A DNA stretch of 64,000 nucleotides from Geovibrio thiophilus. Lineage in GTDB: Bacteria > Chrysiogenota > Deferribacteres > Deferribacterales > Geovibrionaceae. Numbering within the stretch: the stretch's first letter is position 1; every line of letters begins with the position of its first letter. The notes under the pieces are model-generated. The model worked only from the letters and a program-made list of their open reading frames with translations. It was not told where the DNA came from and made no database searches. A program made the translations under genes and the position numbers. Below, one piece after another: positions 20,415 through 60,077 of this stretch. Where the stretch lies: positions 1,364,001 through 1,428,000 of the forward strand of contig NZ_CP035108.1 of assembly GCF_004087915.1 (NCBI RefSeq). The letters are read 5' to 3'.

Positions 20415-20417
20415 TTG

Positions 20418-23400
20418 ATGTCAGACTTAAAAAATAACGACGAGGGGAAGAAATTGAATAGAAATGACGAACCAGAGAATACGGGACTGGATTTGACCGA
20501 AGGCGATTCCGACGAATCCGCAAAAGAGGATAAACATTCCAGACTGAACAGGCGTCAGGAACTGCTTCAAAAAGCCCTTGAACGACATAAGAGACATCCC
20601 CGAGCAAGAGAAGTGAAAATCAAAGGCAATGAGGAAGATCCTCAGCAGCCTAAAAAAATATCCCGTGAAGAGTTGCAGAACCGCAAGCGCGCTCTTGAAA
20701 AAAACATCCGGAAAGTGGATGAACAGAGAGAGCAGTACACAAAGGATACGGAAGGCAGAGCACCAGCCCGCGCTGAAAACGCGCAGGAATCTGCTGTGTC
20801 AAGACCTGCGGAAGCACCTGTAACGGCGAAGGAACATACTGTTTCGGCGGAAAAAACGGAAGCACCGGTTATAAAGACTTCCGCCTCAGCCGAAAAATCT
20901 CAGAACAATATATCTGCCGGCTCTGTTCAGGCTGAAAAAACAGCAGGAACTGATGACCGTCAACAAGGTGAGAGAGAAAAAATGCTTCAGCAGGAAAAGG
21001 AGTTGCCGTCGCAGGGTGATGAACGGGAGAAACCTGCGGCAAAACCCGATTCAAATGAAAGACCAAGATACGAGGAACGCCGTCCTCAGGGAGACAGACC
21101 CCAGTACGGCGACAGGCGTCCTCAAGGCGACCGTCCTCAGGGAGACAGACCCCAGTACGGCGACAGGCGTCCTCAAGGCGACCGTCCTCAGGGAGACAGA
21201 CCTCAGTACGGCGACAGGCGCCCCCAAGGCGACCGCCCTCAGGGAGACAGACCTCAGTACGGCGACAGACGCCCCCAAGGCGACCGTCCTCAGGGCGACA
21301 GACCTCAGTACGGCGACAGGCGTCCCCAAGGTGACCGTCCTCAGGGAGACAGACCTCAGTACGGCGACAGGCGTCCCCAAGGTGACCGTCCTCAGGGAGA
21401 CAGACCTCAGTACGGCGACAGGCGTCCCCAAGGTGACCGTCCTCAGGGAGACAGACCTCAGTATGAGCGTCGTCCTCAAGGTGACCGTCCTCAGGGAGAC
21501 AGACCTCAGTACGAGCGTCGTCCCCAAGGTGACCGTCCTCAGGGAGACAGACCTCAGTACGAGCGTCGTCCCCAAGGTGACCGTCCTCAGGGAGACAGAC
21601 CTCAGTATGACCGTCGTCCCCAAGGCGACCGTCCTCAGGGAGACAGACCTCAGTACGGCGACAGACGCCCCCAAGGCGACCGTCCTCAGGGAGACAGACC
21701 CCAGTACGGCGACAGACGTCCTCAGGGTGACAGACCGCAGTACGGAGACAGGCGTCCTCAGGGCGACAGACCTCAGTACGGCGACAGGCGTCCCATGGAT
21801 AAGGACAGAGGCGACAGACCTCAGTACGGTGACAGACGCCCTCAGAGACCTGCTGCTTCCGGCGGTATGACCCCGAAAGATGAAATAAAGCTTGAGATCA
21901 AGAAGAAGATAAAGGACAAGCCTGAGCCTCAGAAGGTTGAGGTTAAGAAAAAGCCTGTCAAAAAAGCGGATAAGCCCAAAAGCTTCCATAAAACAGTAGC
22001 TGAAGGCTTTGACGAGCTTACTATAGAGCACGAGATAGCTGCCGTTGTTGCTGCTCCTGTGGCTGTTGTGGAAAAGGAAGAGGAAGTCGATGAGAGTGCA
22101 AAAAGAAAGCCTCAGACCTCAAGACCCAGACACGATAAGCGCAAGAAGCGTCACGAAGTAGAGCAGAAAGTCATAGTGCGTCCGTCCAGCGTTGAGATAG
22201 GCGAAAACATTATTGTTTCCGACCTTGCCAAGCTCATGGCTGTTAAGGCAACGGAGCTTGTTAAAAAGCTTCTTTCTCTTGGCATAATGGCTTCCGTGAA
22301 TCAGGCTGTTGACGCAGATACAGCGGTGCTTCTTGCCAGTGATTACGGCATAGACATCAAAACCAAAGTGGTTACAGAGGAAGACCTTCTGCCCACTGTT
22401 GCGGATAAGCCTGAAGAACTTATTCCCCGTCCGCCTATAGTTACCGTCATGGGTCACGTTGACCACGGTAAAACCTCTCTTCTTGACGCAATAAGGAGAA
22501 CATCCGTTGCGGAGAAGGAAGCAGGAGGCATCACTCAGCACATAGGCGCGTACGAGGTTGATCTTGAGCACGGAAAAATAGTTTTCCTTGACACCCCCGG
22601 TCACGAAGCGTTCACAACACTCCGTGCCAGAGGCGCGCAGGTTACGGATATAGTTATACTTGTCGTAGCGGCGGATGACGGCGTTATGCCCCAGACCAAG
22701 GAAGCGATTGACCATTCCAAGGCTGCGGGTGTTAAAATTGTCGTTGCTGTCAACAAGATCGATAAAGAAAACGCAAACCCCGATATGGTTAAGCGCCAGC
22801 TTGCGGATCTCGGCATTATTTCCGAGGAATGGGGCGGCAATCACCAGTTTCAGGAAATATCAGCTAAAAAGAACCTCAATATAGACACTCTGCTTGAAAG
22901 AGTTCTGCTTGAAGCCGAAATGCTTGACCTTAAAGGTAATCCTGAGAGACCCGCAGAAGGTATTATTATCGAGTCCAAACTTGATAAGCAGAAGGGTCCT
23001 GTTGCTACTGTGCTTATACGCAACGGCAGCCTGAAAAAGGGCGACTATTTCGTATGCGGAACTGAACACGGCAAAGTAAGAGCCATGTTCAACTTCAAGG
23101 GTATGTCGGTTAAGGAAGCCGGAGTATCTATACCTGTTGAGCTAATGGGCTTCTCCGATGTGCCTCAGTCCGGCGACAGATTTATCGTTACTCCTGATGA
23201 AAAAGTGGCAAAACAAATCGCCGAACTCAGAATGGATCATAAACGTGAAAAAGCACTCATGGAGAAAACAAAAGTTTCTCTTGCGGATCTTTTTGCGAAA
23301 ATTAAACAGGGTGAGCTGAAAGAGCTTAACATAGTTCTTAAGGCGGATGTTCAAGGCTCACTTGCGGCCCTTGAAAACTCGCTTAACAAGCTCACAAGTA

Positions 23401-23999
23401 CAGAGATCAAGGTTAACATCATCCACTCGGGCGTGGGCGGTATCAACGAAAACGATATTATCCTCACCGCTGCATCAAATGGTTTGATATTCGGCTTTAA
23501 CGTAAGACCGGATGTCAAGGCGAAAGAAAAGGCTGAGAAAGAGGGTGTGGATATTAACCTTTACTCCGTAATCTACCAGATTGTGGACGATGTTAAACAG
23601 GCACTTGAAGGAATGATAGACCCGAATCTCAGAGAACAGATTATCGGTCAGGCGGAAGTCAGACAGGTATTCTCCGTTCCGAAAATCGGCAAAATCGCCG
23701 GCTCATACGTTACTGACGGCAAGATCCTCAAAACGGCGGGCGTACGTGTTATCAGAAACTCCATTGTTCTGTATCAGGGTAAGATTTCTTCGCTTAAACG
23801 CTTTAAGGATGATGCGAAGGAAGTTATGGCAGGATATGAATGCGGTATCGGCGTGGAGAAGTTCAACGACCTTAAAGAGGGCGACGTAATCGAAGCCTTC
23901 ATCACTGTAGAAGAAAAGAGAACGCTGGACGACGTTAAGAAAAGCGATCTCGAAAAACAGAAAGCTGCTGCTGCTCAGGAAACTGCAAGCACAGAATAA
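20418..23999 (+). CDS. infB: Translation initiation factor IF-2, with a long RPQGDR repeat region
   Basis: IF-2 is the GTPase that brings initiator tRNA to the 30S subunit. The roughly 1193-residue protein is longer than most. Residues 1-215 are charged and disordered, and about 216-475 are repeats of RPQGDR/RPQYGDR. A second IF2_N domain lies near 590. The G domain starts at [15 protein letters not shown] near residue 680, with DTPGHEAF and NKIDKEN following; domains II-IV are complete to the C terminus. ATG 20418 is preferred over the adjacent TTG 20415 for spacing to GGGGTG. The catalytic half looks normal. Confidence 0.97.
21076..21846 (+). repeat. Tandem coding repeat (mostly 51 bp) in infB
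   Basis: About sixteen near-identical units encode [17 protein letters not shown], some shortened to [12 protein letters not shown] and some with Glu or Asp replacing GlyAsp. Nucleotide identity between units is very high, with runs of units sharing the same silent changes, which points to recent slippage or unequal recombination. The reading frame is kept throughout. Confidence 0.9.
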
Positions 24000-29643: not shown

Positions 29644-30056
29644 GCGAGCACGGAGAGGAATTTGTTCCCGCATACCAGACAGAAGGTTCAGCGGGCATGG
29701 ACATCAGGGCAGGGGAAACGGGCGGGATTGAGGCGGGAGCCTTTAAGCTGGTCAAAACCGGACTCAGGATGGCGATCCCCGCAGGATACGAGGCGCAGAT
29801 TCGCCCAAGAAGCGGGCTTGCGCTGAAGCAGGGAGTAACCGTGCTCAACTCCCCGGGCACAATCGACAGCGATTACAGGGGCGAGGTGGGCATCATCCTC
29901 ATAAACCATTCAAAAAATACATTCAGATATGAAAAGGGTGACCGCATAGCCCAGGCTGTGTTCGCTAAAGTGACAAGGGTCAGCATTCAGTCGGCAGACA
30001 CCCTTGATGATACAGAACGCTCCTCCGGAGGCTTCGGGCATTCGGGAGTGAGGTAA
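29616..30056 (+). CDS. dut: dUTP diphosphatase
   Basis: This trimeric dUTPase keeps uracil out of DNA. The 146-residue protein holds all five motifs: [47 protein letters not shown] and SSGGFGHSG at the C terminus. ATG 29616 overlaps the M16 gene; GGAGGAG lies just upstream. It ends the plus-strand operon and is converged upon by the regulator gene four bases away. Confidence 0.97.
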
Positions 30057-30060
30057 ACCC

Positions 30061-31002
30061 TCAGGTTTCGGCTACGATCGTGCCCATATTTGCCGCATCG
30101 TAGCCAGCTATGCCTTCAAACTCCTGCCGGAACTGAGAAGATTTTAAAATACGCATCATCTGTCTGACCCGCTCTGTCTCAAAATCTTCTTTTTTTATGA
30201 CCAGTTCAAAGCTTTCCTTCTGCAACGGTATAAAGTCCACTGATTCCACCTGCCGGGCGACAAATTCACTCCCCACAGCTATATCGGCGTCTCCCCTGCC
30301 TACTGTGCTGGCAAGTCCCACATGTGCTGCGGTTTCGGTGTAGTATCCGTTAACTGAGGATGCCTTAATCCCAAGCAGGCGAAGATGCTCATCCAGCAAA
30401 ACCCTTGAGCCGGCTCCTTTTTCTCTGTTGACTATTCTTATATCTCTGCGTCCCAGATCTTTCCAGCCTTTGATGCGCCTGGGGTTTCCTTTTGCGACAA
30501 AAAACCCCTGAGTTCTTACAGTGAGATGCACTATTACGGCAGGAACGCCCGGAAGAAGAGCACGGACGAAAGGTATATTGTATGTATTTGTGCTGCTGTC
30601 CCAAAGATGGGCGGCGGTTACGGCAGCATTGCCTCTGTAAAGTTCCACAAGCCCGTCATAACTGCTGAGATAGGAGCGGAGAACAGGCTGCTGTAACTGT
30701 TCTTTCTGCATGCTCTCCACAAGAGCGTCAAGAACCAGATCCTGCCCGCATATTACAAAACCCTTCTCATTCTGTCCTGCTGCGGAGCCGTGGTCAGCAT
30801 GGCAGATTTCACATTGCTCCGGTATGCGGATTTTTTTTGAGCCTGAAATGTAGTCTTCCACATCTTTCATGGTAAAACGGACTTTTCTGCCGACTTTGTA
30901 GGAGTTGATTTCCCCTCTTTTGATAAGTTCATATACTGTATTTTTTGCAATATTAAGTATATTCGCAACATCCTGAACATCTAAAGCTGTCTGGTTTTTC
31001 AT
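30061..31002 (-). CDS. One-component regulator: excisionase-type HTH + PBP-like oxyanion-binding domain
   Basis: About 313 residues. The N terminus is a MerR/excisionase-like helix-turn-helix (TALDVQDVANILNIAKNTVYELIKRGEINSYKVGRKVRF). A short linker follows with C-x2-CH-x2-H (CEICHADH), then a PBP-like domain of COG1910 type (RGNAAVTAAHLWDS, REKGAGSRVLLDEHL, VGRGDADIAVGSEFVA). COG1910 domains are associated with molybdate or tungstate, so it likely senses an oxyanion. The start at 31002 is backed by GGAAGGA; a longer frame to 31047 lacks one. It is divergent from a TauE/SafE permease, the probable target. Confidence 0.85.
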   Translation of the reverse strand: MKNQTALDVQDVANILNIAKNTVYELIKRGEINSYKVGRKVRFTMKDVEDYISGSKKIRIPEQCEICHADHGSAAGQNEKGFVICGQDLVLDALVESMQKEQLQQPVLRSYLSSYDGLVELYRGNAAVTAAHLWDSSTNTYNIPFVRALLPGVPAVIVHLTVRTQGFFVAKGNPRRIKGWKDLGRRDIRIVNREKGAGSRVLLDEHLRLLGIKASSVNGYYTETAAHVGLASTVGRGDADIAVGSEFVARQVESVDFIPLQKESFELVIKKEDFETERVRQMMRILKSSQFRQEFEGIAGYDAANMGTIVAET

Positions 31003-31054
31003 GAATGTTCCTTCCGTGATTTTATTTAAGTGACATTTTATAAGCATATTTACG

Positions 31055-31163
31055 ATATTGACTAATCAATTTATAGGTGATATTACGTGATAAAACAATA
31101 TAAAACATGATGTAATTTTTATATTATATCACTTTTCATATTGATTGATAATTTATATTGATT
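31055..31163. promoter_or_regulatory. AT-rich divergent control region with repeated ATATTGA(C/T)T motifs
   Basis: ATATTGACT at 31055 (within the palindrome ATTGA-CTAA-TCAAT) and ATATTGATT at 31138 and 31155 (17 bases apart) lie between the regulator and the TauE gene. GTGATATTACGTGAT adds a further direct repeat. They are candidate operators for the HTH-PBP regulator. Confidence 0.4.
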
Positions 31164-31177
31164 TATCTGAGGCTGAA

Positions 31178-31963
31178 ATGAAAAGAAACATTGCAAGTTT
31201 TATAAGCGGTTTATCCATAGGTACACTTGGCGGACTGATAGGTCTGGGCGGTGCTGAGTTCAGACTTCCTGTTCTTATATCATTTTTCAGGTTCTCCGCT
31301 CTGGATGCTGTCATACTGAACAAGGCGGCCAGTCTTGTTGTGGTTGCCTCTGCTCTTCCTTTCAGGGCGCAGTCTGTTCCGGTAAGCGTTTTCAGCGACC
31401 ACTGGACAGTAATTCTCAACCTCCTGGCAGGCAGTGTTCTGGGCGCATGGATCGGAGCCAGCTTTGCTGTAAAACTGCATTCAAAGACCTTTTTCAGAAT
31501 AATTTCCGCTATGCTTGTTATAATCGCATTCATACTTCTTTTCAGCCACAGCATGCGGGCGGAATCCGCTTCATTTTTTGCTCCCGGTTTTGTGCAGACT
31601 GTTCTGGGTGTTGCCGCAGGGTTCGTTATAGGTGTTTTTGCATCTCTCTTGGGGGTGGCGGGCGGAGAACTGCTTATCCCTACGCTTATTCTTCTCTTCG
31701 GGCTTGATATAAAAACAGCGGGGAGTCTTTCCCTCGCGGTGAGCCTTCCCACAATGCTTGCGGGTTTCGCGAGGTATTCAAGGGATCAGAGCTTTGCCGT
31801 GATAAAGAGGAACAACGTATTCATAATTTATATGGCGGCGGGTTCCGTAGCCGGAACATTCATCGGCGGCAGACTGCTGGGCATTATTCCCGAATACATA
31901 CTTCTTCCCGCTCTTTCGGCGATACTTTTCATTTCCTCTTACAAAATATGGAAGCATAAGTGA
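31178..31963 (+). CDS. TauE/SafE-family membrane permease
   Basis: A 261-residue inner-membrane protein with about eight hydrophobic helices. Two family repeats are visible: LSIGTLGGLIGLGGAEFRLPVLI near the N terminus and FVIGVFASLLGVAGGELLIPTLIL at mid-protein. TauE/SafE proteins move sulfite, sulfonates and other sulfur-containing anions; the substrate here is not readable. ATG 31178 (after GAGGCTGAA) is preferred over the upstream start in the promoter region. It pairs with the divergent oxyanion-type regulator. Confidence 0.85.
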   Translation: MKRNIASFISGLSIGTLGGLIGLGGAEFRLPVLISFFRFSALDAVILNKAASLVVVASALPFRAQSVPVSVFSDHWTVILNLLAGSVLGAWIGASFAVKLHSKTFFRIISAMLVIIAFILLFSHSMRAESASFFAPGFVQTVLGVAAGFVIGVFASLLGVAGGELLIPTLILLFGLDIKTAGSLSLAVSLPTMLAGFARYSRDQSFAVIKRNNVFIIYMAAGSVAGTFIGGRLLGIIPEYILLPALSAILFISSYKIWKHK

Positions 31964-32261
31964 GCGGGATATTGACAGAATGTACGCATTAATTCTGAAG
32001 GCAGCTCTGGGCACTCCTAAGTGAGCAGGGAGTTAGCTGTCCCTATTCTGTATTAAATTTCAATTTACTTTTTTTATTGAAAACATTTTTTCTTACTTCT
32101 TCTATAAGCTTGTCCATCTTTTTGCAAGTTATTTATAATAAGGTATATATTAATTAGCTTAATGATAAAAATAAAATTAATTACTTCTAATATAGTTCTA
32201 TATTGCGTAATATTTATTTTTGTGCAATAAATTACTATTATGTGACTCTGGGGTGCGCTTT
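31964..32261. other. 298-base AT-rich gap ahead of the exported ferredoxin gene
   Basis: The first 70 bases hold short inverted segments (CAGCT...AGCTG, CACT-CCTA-AGTG) of no clear family. The remainder is very AT-rich with no open frame. Base composition shifts here from the surrounding genome and stays AT-rich to about 34.4 kb. Confidence 0.5.
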
Positions 32262-32855
32262 ATGTCAATTAAAGAAAAGCGGCTAGATAACAAAACCTCT
32301 CGAAGAACAATAATTAAGGCTTTATTATCCTTACTTTTCATTCCGGCATGGAAAATGCCGGAAGCTTTTGCTGTCCATGAACCTTTATGGCTTGATAATC
32401 TTAAAATAAAAGGTAGTGAAGCAGTAATTTTTTTTGATCGAAACAAAAGAATTGGCAAGGTCACTATAATCAGTCGCAATACAAGCGAACGGGTACTCAG
32501 TGAAAGTACTGCTCTTTTTGATACGGCGCAAGAAATTGATAAGATTGTTAAAGGTGCTGAAATTTCTCAATACAGTAAATTTAACTTACCACAAAAAGCT
32601 GTATTACGCATTGCAGATCGTACAGTTATTTTAAATACTTACAGTGAAATTATTATCGGTGAACAATGTAATGACCTTGGTAACGGTATTTGTATCTACA
32701 TTGACAGATGTATTGGCTGTGAAGAATGTTCCTCCGAATGTTCTTTTGAGGCAATTACTATTGTTGAAAACACGCTCAATATTAATCCTGAGAAATGTGT
32801 TGCGTGCTACGCCTGTGTTGGCATATGTCCAACTTCAGCAATAGTTTTATGTTGA
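32262..32855 (+). CDS. Tat-exported two-cluster [4Fe-4S] ferredoxin-like protein
   Basis: A 197-residue protein starting with a twin-arginine type signal (TSRRTIIKALLSLLFIPAWKMPEAFA). About 90 residues of beta-rich sequence of no family I recognise follow, then a bacterial ferredoxin domain with CIGCEECSSEC and CVACYACVGICP, ligating two [4Fe-4S] clusters. It would carry electrons on the periplasmic side. ATG 32262 has GGGGTG six bases upstream. Codon use and composition are far more AT-rich than its neighbours, suggesting acquisition by transfer. No oxidoreductase partner sits beside it. Confidence 0.75.
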   Translation: MSIKEKRLDNKTSRRTIIKALLSLLFIPAWKMPEAFAVHEPLWLDNLKIKGSEAVIFFDRNKRIGKVTIISRNTSERVLSESTALFDTAQEIDKIVKGAEISQYSKFNLPQKAVLRIADRTVILNTYSEIIIGEQCNDLGNGICIYIDRCIGCEECSSECSFEAITIVENTLNINPEKCVACYACVGICPTSAIVLC

Positions 32856-32877
32856 ATATTATACTCAGGAGCTGGAT

Positions 32878-33504
32878 ATGGGAAAAATAATATTTCTCTT
32901 TTTAATAGCATTTGCTTTTGATACTTGTTACTCATTTGATAATATTGGAAAAATCGATACCGTTGGCGGTGTATCTAAAAAATACAGGATTAGCTCACAG
33001 GAAAAAGAATTTATTCCTGAAAGGATGTATAAAACACAAGATTCTTTTGTTTATGAGCGGAGTGAAAACGAAATTACAGGATGCGTTCCGCAGATTGTGT
33101 GTAATACTCCCTGGGTAGTGACTAACAACAATTATAAAGTTGAAGGAACATCTAACATATATAATTTATGGGTTAATGCAAGTACTTTGGTTCGATATGG
33201 AGGCGAGGAAGATATTTGCGGTGCCATCCCTTATATTGCTGACAGTATTTATACTAAAGTTGGTGTTTTTCCTGAAAATCAACGTTTGTTATATGAAAGT
33301 GAAAAAACTGTGTACAATACCTCTGAGCTGATTCTCACATCAGGTAAAAAGACCCATTTCGGGGTTCCTGCTCCATGCGGGATAAGGAGCTCACATAGAG
33401 TTACTATTAATGGAGAATCATTGTCATATAGTTTAAAGAATGGATGTATAGGATATCCTCATGGTGTATCTGATTCTGAAGTCCTGCTTTATGGTGCTGA
33501 ATAG
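32878..33504 (+). CDS. Secreted Cys-containing protein, unknown
   Basis: I do not recognise this 208-residue protein. A hydrophobic N terminus (MGKIIFLFLIAFAFDTCYS) looks like a signal peptide. The mature part is soluble and beta-rich, with Cys residues in TGCVPQIVCN, EDICG, PCGI and GCIG that could form disulfides or bind a cofactor. A good ribosome site (CAGGAGC) precedes ATG 32878, 22 bases after the ferredoxin stop, so it is in the same operon. It is AT-rich like its neighbours. Confidence 0.7.
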   Translation: MGKIIFLFLIAFAFDTCYSFDNIGKIDTVGGVSKKYRISSQEKEFIPERMYKTQDSFVYERSENEITGCVPQIVCNTPWVVTNNNYKVEGTSNIYNLWVNASTLVRYGGEEDICGAIPYIADSIYTKVGVFPENQRLLYESEKTVYNTSELILTSGKKTHFGVPAPCGIRSSHRVTINGESLSYSLKNGCIGYPHGVSDSEVLLYGAE

Positions 33505-33513
33505 GTTTGTGGA

Positions 33514-34392
33514 ATGATAAAAAAAATTATTTGCAATGTCCTGGCTGTCTTTTTGTGTATTGTGTGTTTTTCCTGCGGCAGCAGCTCTTCTTCTGTGGAT
33601 TCAGAAGTTGACTATTCTTCATATTTCAATATGGAAACAATTGATTTTTTAGCCTCTTTAACGGATAATGGCTATATATTGTCTTTGTCCAGTGAACCTG
33701 ACAATGTAATGTCAAAAGTCAGGACAACATATTATTTTTCTGCTAACAAGATTGAATTGTATCTTTTGGTACGTAATTGTTATTCGACACTTTTCACACC
33801 CCGTTTTAAATTTTTTCTTAATTATAGTGACAAAGATATTGTTTTTAACGGCAGTTTAGAAAATTCAGTGACTATGCAGTTATTGCCGGATGAGCAAAAG
33901 ATTATCAAATTAACAGTCGATGGTTTACAGTCTGGTGTAAGTTATGATTTTTTAATTATTAATTCATTTGTAAGTGATAATTACTCTGAAATACATACTT
34001 ACAGATATGTATTGACTGAAAAAGACAGGGCGTATTCTTTTCCCGAAATTATATATGAAAATGTCGGTTCTGATATTTTAAATCCTGATTTATCGAATAA
34101 TTATACAGAATATAGATTTGCTCATGCAGAAAATGGAACCAATACTGCTCTCTTCATGCTTAACAATATGAATACGGATATTAATTACATTGTGCTTACG
34201 ATGCAGGGACTAAATAAGATTAGTGAAAACAGAATAGTTTTGGACAAATTTACGGAATATAAGTTAAATTTAGACACATTTGAACAGAAACATATTTGGT
34301 CAATTGCAGTAGAGAACCCTTTTGTTCCGCTTGAAGATGGAGGAGTTTTGAGACAAATTCCGGCAAATGCTTCCGTTAGTCTTCCTAATTAA
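33514..34392 (+). CDS. Predicted lipoprotein, unknown
   Basis: A 292-residue protein with a lipoprotein signal: MIKKIICNVLAVFLCIVCFSC, then a Ser/Gly-rich linker (GSSSSSVDSEV). The lipobox is VCFSC or close to it, so the lipidated Cys is near residue 21. The rest is beta-strand rich with no motif I know. It is ten bases after the previous gene and shares its AT-rich composition, so it forms an exported trio with the ferredoxin and the Cys protein. Anchoring to the outer or inner membrane cannot be decided. Confidence 0.72.
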   Translation: MIKKIICNVLAVFLCIVCFSCGSSSSSVDSEVDYSSYFNMETIDFLASLTDNGYILSLSSEPDNVMSKVRTTYYFSANKIELYLLVRNCYSTLFTPRFKFFLNYSDKDIVFNGSLENSVTMQLLPDEQKIIKLTVDGLQSGVSYDFLIINSFVSDNYSEIHTYRYVLTEKDRAYSFPEIIYENVGSDILNPDLSNNYTEYRFAHAENGTNTALFMLNNMNTDINYIVLTMQGLNKISENRIVLDKFTEYKLNLDTFEQKHIWSIAVENPFVPLEDGGVLRQIPANASVSLPN

Positions 34393-34402
34393 TATGTTCT
34401 AA

Positions 34403-34573
34403 AGATTGGCGTATTTGGATTTTAAAGGCAGGCTGGATTTAAACAATAATTTTTCTTCAAGACTTAAGGATTAGCTTGAGCTAGACCAAAAAGACAGCAT
34501 CTTTGATGTGATTTATGCCTTCTTGAGCGAATGCGGTAAAAAACCACAGCGGGGCATTAAGAAGTTTTATTAA
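34403..34573 (+). pseudogene. Remnant of a gene, interrupted by one in-frame stop
   Basis: One frame reads RLAYLDFKGRLDLNNNFSS, then RLKD, a TAG stop, and continues LELDQKDSIFDVIYAFLSE and CGKKPQRGIKKFY before TAA. The two halves share the frame and have protein-like composition, unlike random AT-rich DNA. There is no start codon or ribosome site. I cannot name the parent family. It probably marks the edge of the transferred AT-rich segment. Confidence 0.35.
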
Positions 34574-34627
34574 ATCCACACTCCCACCCCAAAAACCGCA
34601 TGAAAAAAATCTTTTTTACAAGTATAC

Positions 34628-34657
34628 TTGATCCACATATAAGTTTTTCTATATAAT
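34628..34657 (+). promoter_or_regulatory. Sigma-70 promoter for the alpha-glucan phosphorylase gene
   Basis: TTGATC and TATAAT are separated by 18 bases; the -10 box ends 16 bases before the start codon ATG 34674. GGGGGTGG follows as the ribosome site. The short leader leaves no room for other control elements. Confidence 0.65.
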
Positions 34658-34673
34658 TTTCAGGGGGTGGAAT

Positions 34674-37223
34674 ATGAGGATTTCTGAATATAATGTAAGA
34701 CCTGACCTGCCGCAAGAGTTGAAAGCCCTTGAGGAGATTGCATATAATCTCTGGTGGTGCTGGAATGATGACGCTCTGGAGCTTTTCAGAAGTATAAACC
34801 CTGCCTCATGGGAGAAATCCCGCCACAATCCCATAGCCGTTATCGGAAGCCTCACGAGGGAAGGCTATGAAAAACTTATGAAGGATCCCGTGTTTATGTC
34901 CCGCCTTGAGGCTGTGCATAAGCAGTTTACGGAGTATATGACTCTGCCCCGCTGGTTTGAGCTTGAACATGCAAAAAAAGTCGAAGAGAAGATGCACGTT
35001 GCCTACTTCTCCGCGGAATACGGAATACACGAATCCGTTAAGCTGTATTCCGGCGGTCTCGGTGTTCTCTCCGGAGACCACTGCAAATCCGCCAGTGATG
35101 TGGGAATACCCTTTTCCGCCATAGGTCTGCTCTACAGAAACGGCTATTTTCACCAGTATCTTAACTCCGACGGATGGCAGCAGGAATACTATCCCTACAA
35201 CGAGTTTTATAATATGCCCATGCGCAGGGCTCTGAACCCTGAAGGTCAGGAAGTCTGCGTTGAGGTCATGGTTGAGAACAGAACCGTTAAGGTCAATGTA
35301 TGGCGCATGGCGGTGGGCAAGATAGAGCTTATACTCCTTGATACGGATGTTGAAGGCAACTCCAAGGAAGACAGACAGATAACGGGTCAGCTTTACGGCG
35401 GCGATTCCAACATGCGTCTCAAGCAGGAAATAATACTCGGCATAGCAGGTTACAGGGCGATCAGGGCAATGGGCAGAAAAGCCACAGTTTATCATATAAA
35501 CGAAGGTCACCCCTCATTCGTGAATCTTGAGCGCATAAGGAACTATGTCTCCGAGGGGATGGAGTTCCGCACGGCTGTCGAGGTAGTGCGCAAGAGCACG
35601 ATTTTCACCACTCACACCCCCGTTCCCGCAGGGTTTGACATATTCGGAACGGATCAGGTTAAAAAATATCTCGGTCCTCTCTTTGAAAACTGCGTCCTGA
35701 ACATAAATCAGCTCATGGGCTTCGGCAGGGTGAATCCGTTTGACGAGAGTGAAGGCTTCGCAATGGCAGTATGCGGCATAAAACTCAGCACATACAGAAA
35801 CGGCGTGAGCCGCCTGCACGGCGAGGTTTCAAGGAAGATGTTCAAGAACATCTGGCCGAACGCCCTTGAAAACTCCATCCCTGTGGGGCATGTGACAAAC
35901 GGCGTCCATCTGCCCACATTCATATCAGAAGAATTTAAAACAATATACAACAGATATATAGGCGAAAACTGGTACTACAAGCCTTACGACTTCACAATCT
36001 GGAGCAAAGCGGAAAACATACCTGATGCCGCTCTCTTCAAAGCCAAGCAGAGGCAGAGGGAAAAGCTTATAGCCTTCGCCAGAAAACACCTGAAAAGCCA
36101 GATTCTCCAGCGCGGCGGAACATCCGGCGAGCTTGTTAAAGCTGACGAGGTTCTTAACCCCGATCACCTCACAATCGGCTTCGCCAGAAGGTTTGCCACA
36201 TACAAAAGAGGTTATCTTCTTTTCATGGACGAGCAGAGGCTCCACCAGATACTCAACAACGCCGATCGTCCGGTGCAGATAATCATAGCGGGCAAGGCGC
36301 ACCCCAAGGACAACGGCGGCAAGGAGATAATCAAAAAGATTTTCCATATCTGCCGTAAGCCGATGTTCAGGGACAAAGTAGTTTTCATAGAGGATTATGA
36401 CATTGAAGTGGCGAAATACCTCGCTCAGGGCGTGGATATATGGCTGAACACTCCGAAACGCCCCATGGAAGCCTCCGGCACAAGCGGCATGAAGATAGCC
36501 GCCAACGGCGGGCTTAACCTCTCTATTCTTGACGGATGGTGGGATGAGGGCTACAACGGCGAAAACGGCTGGGCAATCGGTGCAGGTGAGGAATACGAGA
36601 AGGAGACCTATCAGGATCATGTCGAGAGCATGGAGCTTTACGACAAGCTTGAGAACGAGATAATACCGCTCTTCTACACCAGAGACAGAGCTGGCGTTCC
36701 CCGTGAATGGACAAGGATGATGAAGCAGGCGATTAAAACCTGCGCCGCTTTCTTCAACACCTCCAGAATGGTTATGAACTACACCGACCAGTATTATGTG
36801 CCCGTTCACGAGCTTAATTCCGCTTTCCGCGCGAACAAGCATGAAGAGGCGAAGGAGTATGTTCTCTGGAAGGACAGCATAATCCAGAGCTGGGACAATG
36901 TGCAGTTTGTAGATACAAAAGTTGAGGCTGACGACCTTAAAATGGAGTCGGGCGTAATTTTCAGCGCTGCTGTGCGTACCGATGCCATTCAGCCTGAAAA
37001 CCTTTCCGTATGCGCAATTGTGGAGTTTGACGGAGCAAGCGGCGAGTTTAAAGATCCTGAGTTTGTGGAGCTTGAGTTCAAGAACGTTGAAAACGGCGTT
37101 TACAGCTATTCCACCAAGACAACACTGAAAAAAGCGGGCAAAATGAAGGTGGCTTTCGCCGTTCTGCCCAGACATAAATTTATAAAGGAACGCTTCGAGC
37201 TGAACCAGATAAAATGGGCATAA
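34674..37223 (+). CDS. glgP: Alpha-glucan (glycogen/maltodextrin) phosphorylase, GT35
   Basis: This enzyme releases glucose 1-phosphate from alpha-1,4-glucans. The 849-residue form with an N-terminal DUF3417 region (PQELKALEEIAYNLWWCWNDDALELF) is the long bacterial/archaeal type. SAEYGIHESVKLYSGGLGVLSGDH and HTPVPAGFD lie in the first half. The pyridoxal-phosphate Lys is in EASGTSGMKIAANGG near residue 607, followed by GWWDEGYNG. It overlaps the thioesterase gene by ten bases. Confidence 0.94.
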   Translation: MRISEYNVRPDLPQELKALEEIAYNLWWCWNDDALELFRSINPASWEKSRHNPIAVIGSLTREGYEKLMKDPVFMSRLEAVHKQFTEYMTLPRWFELEHAKKVEEKMHVAYFSAEYGIHESVKLYSGGLGVLSGDHCKSASDVGIPFSAIGLLYRNGYFHQYLNSDGWQQEYYPYNEFYNMPMRRALNPEGQEVCVEVMVENRTVKVNVWRMAVGKIELILLDTDVEGNSKEDRQITGQLYGGDSNMRLKQEIILGIAGYRAIRAMGRKATVYHINEGHPSFVNLERIRNYVSEGMEFRTAVEVVRKSTIFTTHTPVPAGFDIFGTDQVKKYLGPLFENCVLNINQLMGFGRVNPFDESEGFAMAVCGIKLSTYRNGVSRLHGEVSRKMFKNIWPNALENSIPVGHVTNGVHLPTFISEEFKTIYNRYIGENWYYKPYDFTIWSKAENIPDAALFKAKQRQREKLIAFARKHLKSQILQRGGTSGELVKADEVLNPDHLTIGFARRFATYKRGYLLFMDEQRLHQILNNADRPVQIIIAGKAHPKDNGGKEIIKKIFHICRKPMFRDKVVFIEDYDIEVAKYLAQGVDIWLNTPKRPMEASGTSGMKIAANGGLNLSILDGWWDEGYNGENGWAIGAGEEYEKETYQDHVESMELYDKLENEIIPLFYTRDRAGVPREWTRMMKQAIKTCAAFFNTSRMVMNYTDQYYVPVHELNSAFRANKHEEAKEYVLWKDSIIQSWDNVQFVDTKVEADDLKMESGVIFSAAVRTDAIQPENLSVCAIVEFDGASGEFKDPEFVELEFKNVENGVYSYSTKTTLKKAGKMKVAFAVLPRHKFIKERFELNQIKWA

Positions 37224-39667: not shown

Positions 39668-39994
39668 TAAATTTTACATAATTATCAGACTCCATGGATG
39701 GAGTCACGCCGTGCGTAGCGAAGCCGTGTTTATCACGGCGCGAGCGTGTATGTAAAATTTATATGGATGGTAAATTTTACATAATTATCAGACTCCATGG
39801 ATGGAGTCACGCCGTGCGTAGCGAAGCCGTGTTTATCACGGCGCGAGCGTGTATGTAAAATTTATATGGATGGTAAATTTTACATAATTATCAGACTCCA
39901 TGGATGGAGTCACGCCGTGCGTAGCGAAGCCGTGTTTATCACGGCGCGAGCGTGTATGTAAAATTTATATGGATGGTAAATTTTACATAATTAT
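39668..39994 (+). repeat. Three identical 103-bp tandem copies of the double-hairpin element plus a partial fourth
   Basis: Units 39668-39770, 39771-39873 and 39874-39976 are identical by eye; TAAATTTTACATAATTAT at 39977-39994 starts a fourth. Each unit begins TAAATTTTACATA and later carries its inverse TATGTAAAATTTA. Inside are hairpin 1 GACTCCAT-GG-ATGGAGTC, the core CGCCGTGCGTAGCGAAG, hairpin 2 CCGTG-TTTAT-CACGG, and CGCGAGCGTGTAT. The array sits just ahead of the Bax1-I gene, whose ribosome site follows the partial unit. Confidence 0.95.
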
Positions 39995-59881: not shown

Positions 59882-60077
59882 AAAATTCCCATGGAAGGAG
59901 AATTTTTTATTATACAGATTCTTCGCTCTGCCCAGAATGACTTAAATAAATCCCATGGATGGGATTTCGCCGTGCGCAGCGAAGGGCGGTTTATCCGCCC
60001 GTGAGCGTGTATAAAAAATTCCCATGGAAGGAGAATTTTTTATTATTATACAGATTCTTCGCTCTGCTCAGAATGAC
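59881..60077 (+). repeat. Composite repeat: two hairpin/GATTCTTCGC units flanking a double-hairpin element
   Basis: The unit AAAAATTCCCATGGAAGGAG...AATTTTTTATTATACAGATTCTTCGCTCTGC(C/T)CAGAATGAC occurs at about 59881-59941 and 60014-60077. Between them is the double-hairpin element: AAATCCCAT-GG-ATGGGATTT (59948-59967), core CGCCGTGCGCAGCGAAG (59968-59984), GGGCGG-TTTAT-CCGCCC, then GTGAGCGTGTAT (60001-60012). The flanks resemble the inverted repeat at 10.78 kb. The remaining bases to 60167 contain another CATCCTGAACCCGAAGGGTGAAGGA-like fragment but no gene. Confidence 0.85.

Follow-up and report, generated by a model that had tools for sequence, protein, structure and literature searches.

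Within the 64-kb window (the whole stretch of DNA that was analysed), three plus-strand open reading frames (ORFs) spanning positions 32262-34392, with intergenic gaps of 22 and 9 bp, lie in a block of AT-rich DNA between genes for a TauE/SafE-family permease on the left and a glycogen/starch phosphorylase on the right. The features of the locus, defined in part by comparison with the two sister genomes of the genus (G001 and G002), are as follows.

31964-31988, plus strand: 25-bp stub common to G002 (blastn), in which a truncated YoeB-type toxin gene continues from it in frame
31989-34569, no strand: lineage-specific insert of 2,581 bp, delimited by blastn of the flanks against the G001 and G002 loci and by GC content
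31989-32261, plus strand: AT-rich leader (273 bp) 5' of the trio, with promoter-like sites (consensus match only)
32262-32855, plus strand: gene 1 (P0001, 197 aa), dicluster ferredoxin bearing a Tat signal; about 100 aa in its N-terminal part have no relatives
32878-33504, plus strand: gene 2 (P0002, 208 aa), N-terminus hydrophobic, mature part with five Cys, no relatives
33514-34392, plus strand: gene 3 (P0003, 292 aa), lipoprotein-like N-terminus with the non-canonical lipobox CFSC, without relatives
34393-34569, no strand: right end of the insert, containing a 32-codon stop-to-stop stretch
34570-34673, plus strand: right flank, intergenic, upstream of the phosphorylase gene

GC content reaches its window minimum in the trio, at 33.9% against a mean of 48.5% (s.d. 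2.0%, minimum 43.2%) in equal-sized stretches clear of the insert; the whole insert has 33.4%. Its longest stop-to-stop frames (295, 219 and 214 codons) exceed the maximum of 191 codons reached in 1000 shuffles, the three codon positions of genes 1 and 2 have about 42, 39 and 25% GC, and in codon usage, expressed as mean log relative frequency, the trio (−1.34 to −1.45) scores lower than every one of the 25 other window genes examined (−1.18 to −1.00). The three ORFs are real, foreign-looking genes. The sharp fall in base composition and the closely spaced arrangement on one strand reported in the initial annotation were both confirmed; the remnant gene that it placed at the right edge was not, the ORF there (34475-34573) being a stop-to-stop stretch of 32 codons with no family match, no relative in 60 genomes and plasmid matches at chance level only. 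Promoter-like sites, such as that at 32110-32139 in the leader (10 of 12 consensus matches), numbered 18 versus 12.2 ± 3.6 in shuffles, counted by consensus match only, and gene 3 is preceded by a weak Shine-Dalgarno sequence; Rfam gave no match within 31000-35000. The trio would form one operon transcribed from a promoter in the leader.

Alignment of the flanks revealed that the insert, whose entire coding content is the three trio genes, is precisely absent from both sister genomes: the flanks can be aligned over their full length to both congeners, and the insert itself matches nothing in either. Homology to G002 ends at 31988 and restarts at 34570 (blastn), and the position holds 223 bp of different sequence in G002 and about 70 bp in G001. 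The permease and phosphorylase genes are neighbours in both congeners too, at a spacing of 2,710 bp in the window, about 355 bp in G002 and about 160 bp in G001. These alignments mark the AT-rich block as a recent and exact insertion when the sister species serve as reference, a point that the initial annotation had missed. In G002, the 223 bp and the shared 25 bp together encode, in frame, the C-terminal portion of a toxin of the YoeB type (matching positions 20-80 of the PF06769 profile, E 1.6e-11) whose gene is 5'-truncated (locus L051); of this gene the window retains just the 25-bp stub, at the left junction. In the next genus (G003) the phosphorylase gene directly follows a dUTPase gene, which marks the dUTPase-phosphorylase interval as a place of turnover.

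The identity of the flanks to G002 dates the event. Positions 30001-31988 are 94-100% identical and the 104 bp of intergenic sequence to the right (34570-34673) are 97% identical, whereas the genes around this tract reach about 80-92% and the phosphorylase gene about 88-90%; against G001, no comparable identity peak was observed around the insert. The two highly similar segments probably constitute a recent recombination tract, and their identities suggest a recent exchange of the tract between the lineages of G002 and the window genome (G000), within which, or together with which, the one genome came to carry the trio and the other the yoeB fragment. The replacement is young, as its flanks lie in a 94-100% tract inside an 80-92% background, and we infer a gain here, as opposed to a loss in G002, from the foreign composition and the absence of the trio from the phylum genomes searched. 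The segment at 30001-31988 covers a PBP-like/HTH regulator and the TauE/SafE permease and ends at the left junction of the trio.

No integrase, transposase, tRNA site, terminal inverted repeats or convincing target-site duplication was found at the insert. Of the marks of an integrative mobile element (integrase or transposase, att/tRNA site, terminal repeats and target duplication) none was found, and only TTAA occurs at both edges; an integron cassette or transposon was rejected for want of an integrase and terminal repeats, attC being looked for by eye. The edge TTAA (31989-31992 and 34570-34573) is possibly a 4-bp target duplication and possibly chance; TTAA starts at 1.2% of insert positions. 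A 12-bp imperfect direct repeat lies around the left junction (31957-31968, TAAGTGAGCGGG; 32018-32029, TAAGTGAGCAGG). Recently acquired clusters of ORFans are a known phenomenon in bacterial genomes, described as clusters of atypical genes (Cortez et al. 2009, PMC2718499). Compared with such clusters, the trio is similar in its atypical composition, its ORFans and its recent gain at a variable site, and differs in being very small and in having no integrase or other element gene that could be found.

The product of gene 1 carries three motifs that define its predicted export and cofactors.

32298-32318, plus strand: twin-arginine motif SRRTIIK, residues 13-19 (motif scan)
32709-32741, plus strand: first [4Fe-4S] motif CIGCEECSSEC, residues 150-160 (Fer4 profiles and motif scan)
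32796-32828, plus strand: second [4Fe-4S] motif CVACYACVGIC, residues 179-189, followed by P (Fer4 profiles and motif scan)

The twin-arginine motif is followed by a hydrophobic stretch (ALLSLLFIPAW...) and an AxA site, with cleavage likely after AFA. P0001 combines the motif, the hydrophobic stretch and the AxA site with a host genome that encodes TatC (E 1.9e-73), and is a likely Tat substrate. Its two CxxCxxCxxxC motifs are accompanied by profile scores above cut-off for PF00037 (40.4 bits, cut-off 21.1), PF12838 (35.4 bits, cut-off 27) and PF13187 (30.4 bits, cut-off 27), as found in dicluster [4Fe-4S] ferredoxin domains; additional Cys residues stand at 136, 144 and 197. The roughly 100 residues between the signal and the clusters have no relatives, all specific NCBIfam families scored far below cut-off, and the match to the nearest solved sequences (RnfB and clostridial ferredoxins) is confined to the ferredoxin part; AlphaFold prediction without an alignment gave an unusable model (mean pLDDT 36.5). 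Larger proteins matching residues 89-195 were discarded as orthologues, since the matches reflect the ferredoxin domain with ragged spill on its N-terminal side.

Gene 2 encodes a protein with a hydrophobic N-terminus, likely a Sec-type signal, and six Cys residues at 17, 69, 75, 114, 167 and 190; Cys 17 is near the presumed cleavage region and the other five are in the mature part. Neither a haem motif (CxxCH) nor a [4Fe-4S] motif is present in P0002, and its AlphaFold model, predicted without an alignment, is unusable (mean pLDDT 29.8). The N-terminus of P0003 consists of KK, a long hydrophobic run and VCFSC-GSSSSS with a Ser-rich linker. It fails both the strict lipobox [LVI][ASTVI][GAS]C and a PROSITE-like pattern because Cys occupies position −3 (CFSC); as lipoboxes vary, P0003 may still be lipidated, and it is likely an exported, lipoprotein-like protein. 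For genes 2 and 3, Pfam, NCBIfam, PHROGs, PADLOC and PDB sequences yielded no acceptable match. Across the trio, a PADLOC match to BrxP (E 0.002, residues 150-190) and a match to LRR_ComC (17.3 bits, cut-off 27) were dismissed as due to motif or composition. Taken together, the initial annotation had correctly read the twin-arginine signal and two [4Fe-4S] sites of gene 1, the signal peptide and several Cys of gene 2 and the lack of any recognisable family outside the ferredoxin domain, while of the lipobox that it assigned to gene 3 the general lipoprotein look stands and the strict motif does not.

Of 97,973 species, about 400 were searched for relatives at profile sensitivity; word-based scans took in 84,980 species genomes as well as viral contigs; since the latter need exact 8-residue words, they exclude close relatives only. 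Gene 2 had no relative above chance in 385 genomes and none in the 60-genome search, gene 3 had no convincing relative among the 51 phylum genomes retrieved, and a query joining the N-terminal domain of gene 1 to gene 3 recovered only itself in 385 genomes, plus three chance-level matches; gene 1 as a whole gave matches only to its ferredoxin domain in the genome searches. Plasmids and phages held no relatives of the trio, a further phylum (17 genomes, centre G077) yielded no match, and word scans found no relatives in the species genomes (queries P0002 and P0001) or in the viral contigs. Weak profile matches of P0002 and P0003 (E 5e-4 to 0.1) were rejected as short and in many cases crossing stop codons; the two that were inspected lie in unrelated loci (L032 and L083), and a search of hundreds of genomes would be expected to give matches of about this strength. 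Neither gene 2 nor gene 3 singly occurs in any other genome searched, including both congeners, and the trio together occurs in none, including both congeners and all phylum genomes returned. Conservation of the three genes as a set, on which the initial annotation had made its proposal depend, was thus found nowhere within the about 400 genomes, plasmids and phages searched.

Next, the trio was compared with known iron-sulfur proteins. Gene 1 shares the two C-terminal CxxCxxCxxxC motifs of the 2[4Fe-4S] dicluster ferredoxin domain (PF00037, PF12838, PF13187, PF13237) and is unlike plain dicluster ferredoxins in its Tat signal and in the roughly 100 aa towards the N-terminus that lack relatives. 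NapG, NrfC, DmsB and TtrB are periplasmic Tat-exported Fe-S subunits that have three or four cluster motifs and are encoded beside a catalytic or quinol-linked partner. Gene 1 resembles them in Tat export, [4Fe-4S] motifs and presumed electron transfer outside the cytoplasm, but has two motifs only, and its neighbours are the PBP-like regulator, the permease and the phosphorylase in place of a partner of the NapG/NrfC/DmsB type. The insert and adjoining genes contain no gene for a catalytic partner, quinol oxidase, cytochrome or molybdoenzyme.

The trio is probably an ORFan island that the genome gained recently, and its first gene would encode a periplasmic dicluster ferredoxin. According to this explanation, 2.58 kb of AT-rich DNA would have been inserted between the permease and phosphorylase genes and would have replaced a decayed toxin gene, as the comparison with G002 indicates. 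P0001 would be folded in the cytoplasm with its two [4Fe-4S] clusters, exported by Tat and serve as a small periplasmic electron carrier, as its motifs and the TatC of the host would predict; from their N-termini, P0002 would be a Cys-containing exported protein and P0003 a membrane-anchored lipoprotein, most likely envelope partners or neighbours of P0001. Operon-like spacing and joint arrival suggest that the three proteins may work together, and a joint redox role is possible, while the role of the trio stays a guess because no relatives of the set were found. The locus is a clean example, with the occupied and the unoccupied site in closely related genomes, of fully unknown exported proteins entering a genome.

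The same observations were weighed against three other accounts. A dedicated periplasmic redox unit is a rather unlikely reading of the trio. In such a unit the Tat ferredoxin would receive electrons and pass them to a Cys protein that the lipoprotein holds at the membrane, and so serve the reduction of an extracellular or periplasmic acceptor. The exported look of all three products, their tight spacing and the pairing of a ferredoxin with five mature Cys residues in P0002 agree with such a unit, but neither the set nor gene 2 or gene 3 is conserved anywhere searched, a catalytic or quinone-linked partner is missing and P0002 has no haem or [4Fe-4S] motif. Of the undescribed electron-transfer unit proposed in the initial annotation, the export signals (that of gene 3 as likely) and the ferredoxin domain hold up, and the conservation of the trio does not, nor is there a redox partner gene. 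Members of this phylum respire sulfur, nitrate and metals. The long shot among the readings is a new, compact extracytoplasmic redox relay from the Tat ferredoxin to a lipoprotein-held Cys carrier, spread by an unsampled mobile vehicle; if true, it would add a periplasmic electron-transfer route outside the known families in this phylum.

That the ORFs are decaying passenger DNA, mobile-element leftovers neither expressed nor needed, is improbable. Such leftovers would fit the lack of relatives, of a regulator and of any remaining mobile genes, as well as the weak Shine-Dalgarno sequence before gene 3; three intact ORFs longer than any in the shuffles, with export-type N-termini and complete cluster motifs, speak against decay. 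An ancestral island, present with the yoeB fragment in the ancestor of the genus and lost in different parts by G002 and G001, is more doubtful still: the yoeB stub common to G000 and G002 does point to a site with a history of turnover, but no trace of the trio occurs in G001 or the next genus, the composition is strongly foreign to the host, and at the right edge the sister sequence runs on without a break.

Two further observations were made elsewhere in the window. A long tandem repeat occupies 21000-21900, in the N-terminal part of an IF-2-like gene (ORF 20415-23999), where other frames are open too. The segments 39692-39984 and 59942-60018 match the G001 locus at more than one position, which points to a short dispersed repeat.
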